Shown here: piece by piece, positions 48,447-56,152 of the stretch
Layout of the letters: every line of letters starts with the position of its first letter
How positions within the stretch are numbered: the stretch's first letter is position 1
Assembly: GCA_029258325.1 (NCBI GenBank)
Contig: JARHZF010000097.1
Location: 1 to 64,000, forward strand
DNA from: Anaerobiospirillum sp.
GTDB taxonomy: Bacteria > Pseudomonadota > Gammaproteobacteria > Enterobacterales > Succinivibrionaceae
Reading direction: 5' to 3'
Length of the DNA: 64,000 nucleotides
Program-made: the position numbers and the translations under genes
Notes under the pieces: model-generated
Told to the model about the DNA's origin: nothing
What the model saw: only the letters and a program-made list of their open reading frames with translations
The model's database searches: none

Positions 48447-49478
48447 CTAGTTTAATGAAAGAAATTTATATTTTATGAACTTGTTTAATGGTAAATCTGG
48501 TTTTACTAAAGGATTTACATCTTCAAATTGAGTTAAATTTGGAGAGTCTGGATAAAACTCAGGTTCTAAACAAAAACCAGATTGATTTTCATAGGCTACA
48601 CCATCATCACGTGCAATAATATCTGCTCCTTCATGTATATAGTTTCCTGTATAGAATTGCACACAAGGATAATCAGTATAAACTTCCATCATAAGTTTAT
48701 TATCTTCTGATTTTGCAATAGCAAATGGTTCACTGCCATTGCCATCTAGTAGATAAGGGTGATCATAACCTCTTGCTTTAATCATTTGCACATCATTTAA
48801 GAAATCAAGACCAATTTTCTTCTCTTTATTAAAATCAAAAGCTGTATTTTCTACAGGAATAATATTACCTGTTGGTACAGAACCATCATCTAGCTCTAAA
48901 TATTCTTTAGATTTTAAATATAGGCTATGATTTAAGATAGAGCTATTAAAACCATTTAAGTTAAAGTAGGCATGATTAGTAATACAAGCAGGGCATGTAG
49001 CATCACAAGTTGCATAGTATTGAACTAATAAGCTATTGTCATTTTCAAGTTTGTAATTTACGACTAAATCAAAGTTACCTGGAAAACCTTGATCTCCATC
49101 TACAGAATGTATAGTTAAAGTTATGCTACTATCGCTTTTATCTATAATAATAAAACGTCTTTTATCAAAGCCGTTAATACCACCATGAAGACAATGTTCT
49201 GCATTAGATGCAAGTACATATTTTTTGTTATTAACTACAAATTGAGAACCTCTAATTCTATTTGCAAATCTTCCTATAGTTGCATTGAAGTAACAGCCTT
49301 GAGTTCCCCAATCATTTTCATCTTTAACACCTAAAAGAACTTCTCTTTTTACCTTTTCGCCAGTAACAGGAACTTTTATAGATGTAATAGTTGCACCCCA
49401 ATCCATAACAGTTACAGTCATGCCATTTGCATTTCTTAATGTATGTAAAATAGGGTCATGTGAGTAGACATTATTCAT
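48447..49478 (-). CDS. galM: Aldose 1-epimerase (galactose mutarotase)
   Basis: GalM converts beta- to alpha-galactose, the substrate of GalK. The 343-residue protein has the family motifs GATITSIKVPV, NATIGRFANRIRGSQF, the catalytic His in ITNHAYFNLNG, GFDKRRFI, and the catalytic Glu in GFCLEPEFYPDSPN. It is monocistronic and 18 kb from galETK rather than next to it. No GalR-type palindrome was seen upstream, so it may be controlled separately. Confidence 0.94.
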   Translation of the reverse strand: MNNVYSHDPILHTLRNANGMTVTVMDWGATITSIKVPVTGEKVKREVLLGVKDENDWGTQGCYFNATIGRFANRIRGSQFVVNNKKYVLASNAEHCLHGGINGFDKRRFIIIDKSDSSITLTIHSVDGDQGFPGNFDLVVNYKLENDNSLLVQYYATCDATCPACITNHAYFNLNGFNSSILNHSLYLKSKEYLELDDGSVPTGNIIPVENTAFDFNKEKKIGLDFLNDVQMIKARGYDHPYLLDGNGSEPFAIAKSEDNKLMMEVYTDYPCVQFYTGNYIHEGADIIARDDGVAYENQSGFCLEPEFYPDSPNLTQFEDVNPLVKPDLPLNKFIKYKFLSLN

Positions 49479-49612
49479 ATCAATTATCCTATAAAAAAGT
49501 AATAAAATTACTTACATAATACAACTTTACTTACTAATATTTAAAGATTTTATTTATAAATTTATAATAGAAAAGATTTTTTTAATTATAAAATCAAAAA
49601 AGATCTTTTTTA

Positions 49613-51070
49613 TTATGTTTTATTTTCAACTATTGTATTAAGAGCATTTATTAAAGCTAATGCAGAACCTTCAATAATATCTGTAGATAATGCTCTACCA
49701 TAGTAATGTTTATCTTTATAACTTATGTATAAAGATATAAGAGCTTGAGCTTTTGTACCTTGACCTTTTGATTTAATCTTACAATCAAGAAGAGAAAATT
49801 TAATCTCAGTTATACGCATAATACAATTAAATACAGCATCAATAGGACCACTACCTATATAACTATCTGTTCTTGTTCTTTTACCACATTTTATTTTTAT
49901 AGAAGCTGTTGTATGTAAATCATTATTAGAAGACATTATATTTAATGTTATAAGTTCAAAAGCTTTTTCTTTCTTTTCATCATTTGAAAAAAAGAGTAGA
50001 GCCTCTAAATCATAATCAAATACCTGACCTTTTCTTTCTGCAAGTTCTAAAAATTTCTTGTATATATAATCAAGATTATATGTTGTAGAGTCATAACCTA
50101 ATTTTTGTAATGTGCTCTTGACCATATGACGACCCGATCTTGCATTCATTTGTAAAGGTCTTGCTTCATTACAATCATTATCAACTTTTAGTGTTGATGT
50201 AGATATTTGTTCTTTATAAACTTTAGCAGATAAATTTATAAGATCAGATATTGAGTGCACAGCTCTTTTTATTTTTTCACAATTTATATTTGTGTATAGA
50301 TTATTAAAGTAATCTTTTTTAGTTCTAATAGCAAAAACAATATCTTCTAAAAGACAATGACTTGCAGTTGTACCAATACCAGTAATAGTACATTCAATTT
50401 GTCTAGCTCCAGATACTAAAGAGCTAATTGTATTTGCACATGCCATACTTAAATCATTATGACAGTGTACAGATATAGTAATATCTTTTAGCTTATCTAC
50501 ATTTTCATAAAGTCTACTAATTAAAGATGAGTATTCACTTGGAAAAACAAGATGATTTCCATCATTTAAATTTATAGTATTAGCACCTGCATCTATAGAT
50601 ATTTCTACTATATGTTTTAAGATAGAAAAATCTACATTAAAAATATCTTTTAATGTGAGTTCAATATCATCTGTGTATTGCTTTGCATGACTTATAGCAT
50701 TTTTTATTTTTCCATAAATAGAATCCATGCTTATGTTTTTACAATCACGAAAATCAAAAATAAGATCAAGTCTAAAGTCTTTTTTTAGATTTTCTATAGA
50801 TTTATAAGCACTATCTATATTATTACAATCCATAGATGTAAGAATACAAGGTTTTGCATGTTTTAAAACTTTAGCAATTTCCTCTACATTTTTAAAATCT
50901 TCAATAGAGTGAGATGGATCGGGTATTTCTATAATATCTACACCTAGCTTATCTAAAATAATAGCAATTTGAATTTTTTCTTTTAATGAAAAAAATGACT
51001 TAATGTTTTTTATGCCATCACATAAAGTAGAATCAAAAACTATTACTTGATTTTGTTTGAGTAAAGACAT
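49613..51070 (-). CDS. LeuA-like protein with degenerate active site
   Basis: The 485-residue protein aligns end to end with 2-isopropylmalate synthase, including the C-terminal leucine-binding domain (GQVFDYDLEALLFF, GSGPIDAVFN, ALSTDIIEGSALALINALN). The active site is altered. TLRDGEQ is TLCDGIK (R to C at 17), ED in FSCEDAGRT is KD, NGIGERAGN is TGIGTTASH, and the segment with the catalytic SSGIHQDG is deleted. The metal ligands D18, H202 and H204 remain. The frame is open throughout. It is probably not a normal isopropylmalate synthase. It could be a sensor-like pseudoenzyme, a changed enzyme, or an early pseudogene. No leuBCD lies nearby. Confidence 0.8.
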   Translation of the reverse strand: MSLLKQNQVIVFDSTLCDGIKNIKSFFSLKEKIQIAIILDKLGVDIIEIPDPSHSIEDFKNVEEIAKVLKHAKPCILTSMDCNNIDSAYKSIENLKKDFRLDLIFDFRDCKNISMDSIYGKIKNAISHAKQYTDDIELTLKDIFNVDFSILKHIVEISIDAGANTINLNDGNHLVFPSEYSSLISRLYENVDKLKDITISVHCHNDLSMACANTISSLVSGARQIECTITGIGTTASHCLLEDIVFAIRTKKDYFNNLYTNINCEKIKRAVHSISDLINLSAKVYKEQISTSTLKVDNDCNEARPLQMNARSGRHMVKSTLQKLGYDSTTYNLDYIYKKFLELAERKGQVFDYDLEALLFFSNDEKKEKAFELITLNIMSSNNDLHTTASIKIKCGKRTRTDSYIGSGPIDAVFNCIMRITEIKFSLLDCKIKSKGQGTKAQALISLYISYKDKHYYGRALSTDIIEGSALALINALNTIVENKT

Positions 51071-51376
51071 TTTAAAATTACCTATAAATTACAAAAAGTA
51101 TATTTTTTGTAAAAAAATTGAGAAAAATCTTTTTTATGTTTTTTATACAAAAGTATTTATTTATATTAGAGATTTTAATAAAGAAGAATATTTGCAAAAT
51201 AATGATATTTTCTTTATTTATGGGATATTTATTCCAAAATAAATATCCTACTATCACTTATATATAAGCTTTAATAAGATATACTATTTATTTTGCAAAA
51301 ATATAGTTTTTCGTAAAAAAAATCAATTAAGCTATTAATCATAATACAAAAAATTATGTTTTTTATTTTCTTTTTA
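51071..51376. other. AT-rich gap between the LeuA-like gene and glpK
   Basis: This part of the divergent gap has no supported gene. A 61-codon frame at 51057-51242 overlaps the start of the LeuA-like gene and lacks a ribosome site. The gap should contain the LeuA-like promoter. I saw no strong hairpin. Confidence 0.5.
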
Positions 51377-51497: not shown

Positions 51498-53036
<1,539 letters not shown>

Positions 53037-53063
53037 TAACTAGGCAAAATTGGAGAATTAGCT

Positions 53064-53786
53064 ATGTTACCTTATATAAGTGAATTTGTAGGTACTGCAA
53101 TTCTAATTATCTTAGGTTGTGGTGTAGTAGCAAATGTTTGCTTAACTGGTTCTGGTATGAAAGGTGGTGGTCCTATTCAGATAACCATAGCATGGGGTCT
53201 TGCAGTTATGTTACCTGCATATACCTTTGGTTCATCATCAGGTGCCCACTTTAATCCAGCTTTAACTATTGCTCTTGCAGCAGATGGTTCATTCCCATGG
53301 GAAATGGTACCAGGCTACTGTATTGCTCAATTTGCAGGTGCAACTCTTGGTGCTTGTATTGTATATGCTTTATACAAGTGTCAATTTGCAGCAGAACAAG
53401 ATCCACTAACAAAGCGTGGTGTATTTTGTCCAACTCCTGTAATTCAAAACTTTACCCAAAACATGTTATCAGAAATTGTAGGTACATTTATTCTTGTATT
53501 TGCAATTAAAGGTATAGCTAACATAGTTCCACTAGCAGGTGGTGTATCTTGGTTTGTTGTATTTGGTATTATCGTGTCAATTGGTATGTCATTAGGTGGT
53601 TTAACAGGTTATGCTATTAACCCAGCTCGTGATATTGGTCCTAGATTTGCACACTTTATTCTACCAATTCCAGGCAAGACAGACTCAAATTGGAAATATG
53701 CTATTGTGACATTATTTGGCCCAATTATTGGTGCTCTATTAGCAGTAGGTGTATTTAATATTATTCCATGGGCTCCAGCTGCTTAA
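53064..53786 (+). CDS. glpF: Glycerol uptake facilitator (aquaglyceroporin)
   Basis: GlpF lets glycerol diffuse across the inner membrane. The 240-residue MIP channel has six membrane helices and the two NPA loops, GAHFNPALTIA (about residue 60) and GYAINPARDIGPR (about residue 187). The Asp after the second NPA box (NPARD) is the mark of glyceroporins rather than water channels. It is co-transcribed with glpK and ends before a strong terminator. Confidence 0.95.
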   Translation: MLPYISEFVGTAILIILGCGVVANVCLTGSGMKGGGPIQITIAWGLAVMLPAYTFGSSSGAHFNPALTIALAADGSFPWEMVPGYCIAQFAGATLGACIVYALYKCQFAAEQDPLTKRGVFCPTPVIQNFTQNMLSEIVGTFILVFAIKGIANIVPLAGGVSWFVVFGIIVSIGMSLGGLTGYAINPARDIGPRFAHFILPIPGKTDSNWKYAIVTLFGPIIGALLAVGVFNIIPWAPAA

Positions 53787-54211: not shown

Positions 54212-56152
54212 TTATTTTTTATCTCTTTTTTTCACAACCTCAACATCTTCGTTAAAGGTTTGATTTTCATGGCGACTTGTTCTTACAAAATCCATTTCTT
54301 TTAATATATAAGAGACAACTTTTTTAGAACCAGCTATAGAGTAATGAAGACCATCTTGATAGATAGGGACAAAATCATCTGTCATAATTTGACAGTTAGT
54401 ATCATCACAAATAGCATCATTTGGATTTATAACTTTTATATTTTTATAAGCCTTAGCTGTTTCTTTAATATAAGAGTTAAGTTTTATTATTTTTGGTGAA
54501 TGTAGATCTTTTCTAACATTGCATGGAATAGATTTCTTTAAAATATTAGTAAAGATATTGTCCATACGATGTAAATACATACAAGTAGCACCAATATCAA
54601 AAAATGTTTGATAAGGATTTGTAATTAGATAGATCTTAGATTTAGGCATATCTTTAGATAAAGCCTCAATATCAAGAGCTAATTGTTTATAAAAATCTTC
54701 TACTTTTTGTTCATGATTAGATCTCATATAAAGACTTTTTTCATATCTTTGCCAATCTTGAGCAATCATAACTCTTAAATGAGGATTTTTATTTGCAATT
54801 TCAACAAGGTTCTTATAACGTATTTCGCATTTAGGATCAATAATACCCTCAGGTCTTTTACTTACAGCACTACTGTAGGAGTAACAACCATCTTTAAATA
54901 CTGTATAAACTTTAATACCACGAGATAGGAGATCACGCATATAGTGTCTTGAAAAACTATCACCAGATATAATAAATAAAGGTCTTTTATCTTTATTACC
55001 CTCAATTCTAACATCACCTTCATTAGTTATAGTTTTACCACCATATAAAGAACCTTCAGGTACTATATGTTTTACTCTATAAGGGGCACCATCTAATGAA
55101 AAATAATAAGATATTGAGCATAAAGCTGTATAAAAGGCTAAAAATATATAGCCATAATTACGTCTAGTTTCAAAGACATGATAGATGATAATAGCACTTA
55201 TTAAGATTAATAATACTGTCTGTAGAACAAAAGCATCAAAGCCTAAATTAGTCATAACAACTAAGATAGGGTAGTGCATTAAGTATATAGAGTAAGAGTA
55301 AAGACCTATTTTTTGTATAATGACATTTTTTAAAACTGTATCTTCATTATTAGTTGCAATACATATATAAGCACCTAAACATGGAAGTAAAGAAAAAGCT
55401 GTAGGCCAGTGATTATCTTCATTAATAATGATACAAGATATTAAGATAAGGCTAAGACCTAGAAGTTCTAAATTCTTTTTACTTACTCTTTTTGTGTAAA
55501 TAGGATAAAAGAAAGCAAGTGCTCCTATTAATAATTCAAAAGAGCGAGAATAGGTCATAAAATAAGATTCTTTTGGATTATATGTGGTATACCAAATACC
55601 AAAGATAGTAAGAACTATAGTTAGTAAAGTGGTTATATTTTTGAGTTTATCGCGACCAAAAGTTTTTGCAATTAAAAGAAGTATGACAGGGTAGAAAATA
55701 TAAAATTGCCATTCAACTGATAATGACCAAGTATGAAGTAGAGGTTGATTTAAAGAGGATGCAGCAAAGTAATCTGTATTTTGAGCAAAGGATATATTTG
55801 ATATAAATAAAAGAGCACATAAAGAGTCAAAAGCATATTTCTTTAAGTCACCTACACCAAATATAAAATAATATACTACTAAGAAAAGTAAAATAGTAAT
55901 AAATAAAGATGGGCAAATTCTTTTTGCTCTATTTTGATAGAATGTTGTAAGAGAAAAATTATTCTTTTCAATTCCTGTATAGATTATCTTGGTCATTAAA
56001 AAACCAGATATAACAAAAAAAACATCTACGCCAACAAAACCACCTCTTAAAAAATTAGAGTTTGGATATAAGCTTTGGCAAATATGAAAAATAGTAACTG
56101 CTAATACAGCAATAGCTCTTAGACCTGTTATATCATTTCGCAGTTTACGCAT
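54212..56152 (-). CDS. OafA-type surface polysaccharide acyltransferase with SGNH domain
   Basis: The 646-residue protein has an N-terminal acyltransferase-3 domain of about ten membrane helices (TGLRAIAVLAVTIFHI with catalytic His, FFVISGFLMTKIIY, HTWSLSVEWQFYIFYP) to about residue 350. A C-terminal SGNH hydrolase domain follows, with the Ser in ISGDSFSRHY and the Asp-His of QDGLHYSIAGS. Such two-domain proteins O-acetylate LPS O-antigen or peptidoglycan-linked sugars. The substrate cannot be told. It has its own ribosome site (GGGG) and terminator and no glycan genes beside it. Confidence 0.92.
   Translation of the reverse strand: MRKLRNDITGLRAIAVLAVTIFHICQSLYPNSNFLRGGFVGVDVFFVISGFLMTKIIYTGIEKNNFSLTTFYQNRAKRICPSLFITILLFLVVYYFIFGVGDLKKYAFDSLCALLFISNISFAQNTDYFAASSLNQPLLHTWSLSVEWQFYIFYPVILLLIAKTFGRDKLKNITTLLTIVLTIFGIWYTTYNPKESYFMTYSRSFELLIGALAFFYPIYTKRVSKKNLELLGLSLILISCIIINEDNHWPTAFSLLPCLGAYICIATNNEDTVLKNVIIQKIGLYSYSIYLMHYPILVVMTNLGFDAFVLQTVLLILISAIIIYHVFETRRNYGYIFLAFYTALCSISYYFSLDGAPYRVKHIVPEGSLYGGKTITNEGDVRIEGNKDKRPLFIISGDSFSRHYMRDLLSRGIKVYTVFKDGCYSYSSAVSKRPEGIIDPKCEIRYKNLVEIANKNPHLRVMIAQDWQRYEKSLYMRSNHEQKVEDFYKQLALDIEALSKDMPKSKIYLITNPYQTFFDIGATCMYLHRMDNIFTNILKKSIPCNVRKDLHSPKIIKLNSYIKETAKAYKNIKVINPNDAICDDTNCQIMTDDFVPIYQDGLHYSIAGSKKVVSYILKEMDFVRTSRHENQTFNEDVEVVKKRDKK

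Follow-up and report, generated by a model that had tools for sequence, protein, structure and literature searches.

A relict LeuA homologue with an eroded catalytic centre and a conserved regulatory domain in an Anaerobiospirillum genome

The gene here called leuA*, from a gut-type bacterium, lies in the window, the whole stretch of 64,000 nucleotides that was analysed, and encodes an intact homologue of 2-isopropylmalate synthase (LeuA) whose features suggest a dead enzyme retained for another job. The reading that we favour, although we hold it at only about even confidence, is that of a relict leuA, catalytically dead and constrained as a protein, whose product would probably be a dimeric leucine-binding pseudoenzyme. 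The original prediction described 485 open codons aligning with LeuA from end to end, which the reading frame and matches to Pfam and NCBIfam models bear out; the strand, left unstated there, is minus. The gene and its regions are as follows:

49613..51070, minus strand: leuA*, an intact ORF of 485 aa, encoding a catalytically degenerate 2-isopropylmalate synthase homologue
50213..51070, minus strand: HMGL-like TIM-barrel region (aa 1-286), active-site motifs lost, D18/H202/H204 kept
50162..50212, minus strand: remnant of linker subdomain I (aa 287-303), SSGIHQDG block scrambled, 21 aa shorter
49985..50161, minus strand: linker subdomain II (RSGRH...GQVFDYDLEALLFF; aa 304-362), the best-kept stretch
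49631..50026, minus strand: LeuA_dimer allosteric (leucine-binding) domain (aa 349-480), a Pfam match with its pocket mapped through 1SR9 (PMC2704214)

The frame runs from ATG to stop on the minus strand over 49613-51070, with 485 codons and zero internal stops, and the plus strand over the same interval is full of stops. Homology to LeuA is well past chance (E 1e-53 to 1e-123). Pfam recognizes an HMGL-like domain (PF00682, 3e-52, aa 9-270) and a LeuA_dimer domain (PF08502, 1.3e-27, aa 349-480), and the NCBIfam LeuA models cover the protein end to end at scores well under their cut-offs (411.5 vs 748 bits and 365.6 vs 598.7). Base composition is gene-like, with a GC content of 37, 31 and 10% at the first, second and third codon positions and 18% in the flanking spacers.

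Activity as an isopropylmalate synthase has almost certainly been lost, as judged residue by residue against 30 aligned LeuAs from the family and the order. The active site carries the substitutions R17C, E20I, Q21K and E145K (aa 141); FSCEDAGRT has become LTLKDIFNV, NIPDTVGY reads NLNDGNHL and NGLGERAGN reads TGIGTTASH. The TSDIH block has a 5-aa deletion, and the SSGIHQDG linker block combines a 21-aa deletion with scrambling. The metal ligands D18, H202 and H204 (Asp and HxH) are kept, as are E226 and the stretches SVHCHNDL and GARQIECT of the barrel. In Mtb LeuA, the substrate site comprises D81, H285, H287, N321, E309 and G320, and the acetyl-CoA groove GxGERxG, H379 and Y410 (PMC2704214). 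Set against this list, leuA* still has the metal Asp and the His pair but is without the groove motif and the region of the His and Tyr. The individual residue calls of the original prediction (R17C, E20I, ED to KD, TGIGTTASH, SSGIHQDG gone, and D18, H202 and H204 kept) are right on the 30-LeuA alignment, and the erased active-site residues support its claim that isopropylmalate synthase catalysis is lost. Absent from its list was the Asn of NG(I/L)GE, also gone in leuA* (T230), whose equivalent N321 is a listed substrate-site residue of the Mtb enzyme (PMC2704214).

A whole-genome search identified leuA* as the sole PF00682 (HMGL-like) protein of the source genome. A second canonical leuA, proposed earlier as something to look for, was thereby rejected, none being found genome-wide. 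Neither leuB, leuC nor leuD was found in the source genome, which gave only weak aconitase-like and isocitrate-dehydrogenase-like matches, and the window holds no leuBCD fragments; leuC is present in nearly all other genomes searched, and leuB and leuD in all five comparison genomes. Besides the source genome, the genus was sampled through one genome (G001), and the leuA* form is known from one assembly. At the G001 locus (L043) the gene order is acyltransferase, leuA, leuB, leuC, leuD, galM and CheW genes; in the window, with the same flanks, it is acyltransferase, leuA*, galM and CheW genes. The flanking features are:

48447..49478, minus strand: galM homologue, the downstream syntenic flank
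49479..49612, unstranded: 134-bp spacer, site of the leuB-leuC-leuD deletion (the genes between leuA and galM in G001)
54212..56152, minus strand: acyltransferase (OafA-like), the upstream syntenic flank

Because these flanks are those of leuABCD in G001, leuA* is the operon's own leuA, with leuBCD deleted alongside, and not a second copy. The pseudoenzyme interpretation put forward at the outset lacked this context, and it now concerns a leuABCD relict with no working leuA beside it. The source genome has ilvE-ilvD-ilvA in a row and a BrnQ-family carrier. With leuBCD gone and ilvE-ilvD-ilvA and the BrnQ-type transporter kept, leucine auxotrophy is predicted, a phenotype in which valine/isoleucine synthesis would be at least partly retained and leucine taken up.

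Two further features of the region deserve mention. Between leuA* and the acyltransferase lie glpK-glpF (51540-53786 of the window, plus strand); since the acyltransferase and leuA are adjacent in G001, these genes appear to have moved in or been rearranged. In addition, the window has a GC content of 31%, and its eight measured genes have a GC3 of 9-19%; the leuA of G001, from the same genus, reaches 43%, so that base composition has moved strongly towards AT inside one genus.

Upstream of leuA*, two operator-like elements are recognizable:

51291..51318, unstranded: distal operator-like tandem box TTTTACGAAA-N8-TTTTGCAAAA, at -248, 2 mismatches
51087..51114, unstranded: proximal degenerate operator-like box TTTTACAAAA-N8-TTTTGTAATT, at -44, 4 mismatches

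Of the 16 closest canonical relatives, 14 have the tandem box TTTTGCAAAA-N8-TTTTGCAAAA ahead of leuA at three mismatches or fewer (present at L003-L014, L016 and L043, absent at L015 and L017), and two of these relatives (L005 and L006) also have two sites, at about -42 and -233. When up to two mismatches are allowed genome-wide, it occurs once in G001, upstream of leuA (L043 6865-6892), and three times in the source genome (G000), one of them upstream of leuA*; a control pattern occurred once. Among 4000 same-dinucleotide sequences the distal box never arose (P<1/4000), and the pair had a frequency of 0.00125. This tandem palindromic box, with its 18-bp period, looks like a leu-operon-specific operator in the relatives of leuA*. 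A literature search for its regulator gave no result, a promoter/terminator scan gave no excess over shuffles, and Rfam returned nothing, hence no known leader RNA or riboswitch.

The divergent form has no orthologue in 56 other genomes of the family, probably Succinivibrionaceae, where the best matches are canonical LeuAs (43%), and none was found in 395 genomes of the order, in viral contigs or in a GTDB contig scan. Absence from all related genomes, or stop codons in close relatives, had been named in the original prediction as marks of a pseudogene. The absence holds for the 56 family genomes; it marks an apparently lineage-specific form and does not show a pseudogene. Elsewhere in the family, two genomes of genus g9 (G009 and G019) have leuC, but their matches to type-1 LeuA are very weak at best; leuB and leuD are also present in G009 (L045), with no leuA adjoining leuB. 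In genus g5, genomes G030 and G035 gave no LeuC match, and a LeuA-like match was very weak in G030 and lacking in G035, which is only 74% complete. The family may therefore have lost the leucine pathway on more than one occasion.

Divergence of leuA* is uneven along its length. Identity is 38% in the N-terminal domain and 52% in the C-terminal part, whereas canonical close-clade LeuAs compared with G001 reach 75-82% and 64-75%, respectively (about 80% vs 70%); the catalytic domain is thus the better-conserved half in canonical relatives, and this order is reversed in leuA*. Residues invariant among the 30 LeuAs are kept at 51 of 108 positions in the barrel, 0 of 21 in linker subdomain I and 35 of 40 in subdomain II and the regulatory domain. 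Within the barrel, change has affected 53% of clade-invariant and 74% of variable sites. Identity between the source genome and G001 is 40% for leuA* vs 64-81% for its neighbours and the ilv genes (ilvE 81%, ilvD 76%, ilvA 73%, galM 64%), so the divergence is specific to leuA* and not genome-wide.

A branch codon model (dN/dS) was tried and its omega left unused, since synonymous sites were saturated, composition had shifted and 13-52 substitutions per codon were estimated. In its place we used a neutral simulation in which a G001-like LeuA evolved with the codon usage of the source genome and was halted at the observed 42% identity (180 runs). The simulated sequences acquired a mean of 19.5-21.9 stops and never fewer than 11, against zero in leuA*. 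The indels of leuA* are all in frame, and its replacements are more conservative than neutral ones (mean BLOSUM62 -0.04 vs -0.65, sd 0.10). By the stop rate in the simulation, full neutrality could apply to only about the last 8% of the amino-acid change. We conclude from these comparisons of sequence that during most of its divergence leuA* was constrained as a protein, chiefly in subdomain II and the regulatory domain, and it has very likely stayed under such constraint, at least until recently. The earlier description of a well-conserved regulatory domain agrees with the 35 invariants kept and the PF08502 match, and preferential keeping of that half with the 38% vs 52% identity. The view that this is not simple decay gains support from zero stops at 42% identity, unmatched by the neutral simulation, and from the recognizable upstream operators.

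Leucine binding by leuA* is plausible, not assured. The pocket of Mtb LeuA is formed by G531, G533, L535, A536, V551, Y554, A558, A565 and A567 (PMC2704214), and was mapped through a profile alignment to 1SR9 that is weak (E 0.1) and whose numbering lands on the published residues. In this weak alignment, G531, G533, A565 and A567 are identical in leuA* (G406, G408, A441 and A443), the changes of L535 to Ile (I410), V551 to Leu and A558 to Ser are conservative, and A536 corresponds to D411, Asp being usual in canonical relatives too. The Y554 position, F/Y in relatives, is Cys by the same weak alignment, so the leucine affinity of leuA* may be altered or lost. In LeuA the leucine signal passes through linker subdomain I, and Y410F is insensitive (PMC2704214); this route is destroyed in leuA*. 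A structure model from a two-locus alignment is poor (mean pLDDT 53.6, pTM 0.45). It shows the strands and helices of a barrel over 29-230 and a tail of beta-beta-beta-alpha type, and its best Foldseek matches are, as expected, LeuA/MAM structures; it is uninformative on the pocket.

Other explanations can be weighed against these data. After leuBCD loss constraint may have relaxed with nothing being selected, so that leuA* is dying while its regulatory half decays more slowly or an incidental oligomeric role has lingered. This agrees with the loss of its pathway partners, with the strong divergence of the catalytic half in a lineage-specific form, with a GC content of 26%, the lowest among the neighbourhood genes measured, and with a Shine-Dalgarno-like sequence that is weak by eye (TAGG). 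Decay is nevertheless disfavoured by the missing stops, about 20 being expected, and the in-frame indels and the retained regulatory invariants also speak against it; we regard it as unlikely. A different possibility, raised in the original prediction, is a new enzyme, in which the barrel with its metal ligands D18, H202 and H204 would catalyse another reaction and leucine or another amino acid would act as effector. The retained D/H/H triad, together with E226, SVHCHNDL and GARQIECT, fits such an enzyme, as does an open frame under constraint, but Cys stands in place of the DRE-TIM active-site Arg, so that the losses reach beyond the LeuA substrate residues to an Arg common to the superfamily. 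Lys replaces the Glu of the ED pair, neither the GERAGN nor the SSGIHQDG block survives, NIPDTVGY has changed as described above and no replacement motif stands out. With the superfamily Arg lost and the barrel conserved least of all, a new enzymatic function seems improbable.

An assembly or binning artefact would place the true leuABCD in the unassembled 5% or so of the genome, which is 94.8% complete in 222 contigs, or make the contig foreign or chimeric. The contig is however 102.6 kb long, is syntenic with G001 to either side of the leu site, and lacks leuBCD exactly there; its neighbouring genes are normal orthologues, and no leuA, B, C or D lies elsewhere. As the assembly runs through the leu site, incompleteness does not explain the absence of leuBCD, and an artefact, largely refuted by synteny, is highly improbable.

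The favoured reading, that a bacterium predicted to be auxotrophic for leucine carries a leucine-responsive pseudoenzyme, can be set out as a sequence of steps. Deletion of leuBCD in the lineage left leuA* behind as the original first gene of leuABCD, which would be expressed from the old leu promoter. Its product would fold as a LeuA-like dimer with leucine, or a related amino acid, bound in the C-terminal domain, and a ligand-dependent change of shape may be carried through subdomain II to the barrel, which, its chemistry lost, may touch another protein partner. We put the role of leucine-binding pseudoenzyme at slightly below even. That the allosteric half of LeuA has become, in a leucine auxotroph, an independent leucine sensor under operator control, for instance of uptake or growth state, is a doubtful extension. 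Of the interpretation first proposed, the loss of catalysis, the retention of the regulatory half and a history other than simple decay stand, and leucine binding, a regulatory output and a new substrate remain candidate properties.

Type 1 LeuA (Mtb 1SR9/3FIG, N. meningitidis 3RMJ) resembles leuA* in full length, domain order and D/H/H ligands, and leuA* shares locus and operator with the leuA of its genus; unlike these enzymes, it is without the catalytic Arg and Glu, the acetyl-CoA-groove motif, linker subdomain I and leuBCD. Regulatory pseudoenzymes such as HisZ (PMC10795190) combine a dead catalytic fold with amino-acid recognition and allosteric signalling, the mode proposed for leuA*, but the partner (HisG) and the function of HisZ are known, and it has no homology to leuA*, whose pathway is gone. 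Leptospira LeuA2 (PMC12345160) is, like leuA*, a LeuA homologue with a suggested role beyond leucine synthesis, and is its mirror image in keeping catalysis without the regulatory domain. No description of a LeuA pseudoenzyme was found in the literature (open-licence papers). To our knowledge, methylthioalkylmalate (MAM), homocitrate and citramalate synthases all keep the catalytic Arg/Glu and the metal site, unlike leuA*. In plant MAM it is the regulatory domain that has been lost, the reverse of what is seen in leuA*. These synthases (6E1J for MAM) derive from LeuA or resemble it, and their substrates have changed.

On the evidence of its sequence, leuA* is a real, unusual and lineage-specific pseudo-LeuA, which adds to the known pseudoenzymes from biosynthetic families. 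Automated annotation may call it 'leuA' and so ascribe to the organism a step of leucine synthesis that it lacks. One locus records the deletion of leuBCD, the loss of the catalytic centre and the survival of both regulatory domain and operator; if functional, leuA* would be a clear example from nature of a feedback-sensing domain that has survived the enzyme and the pathway once under its control.
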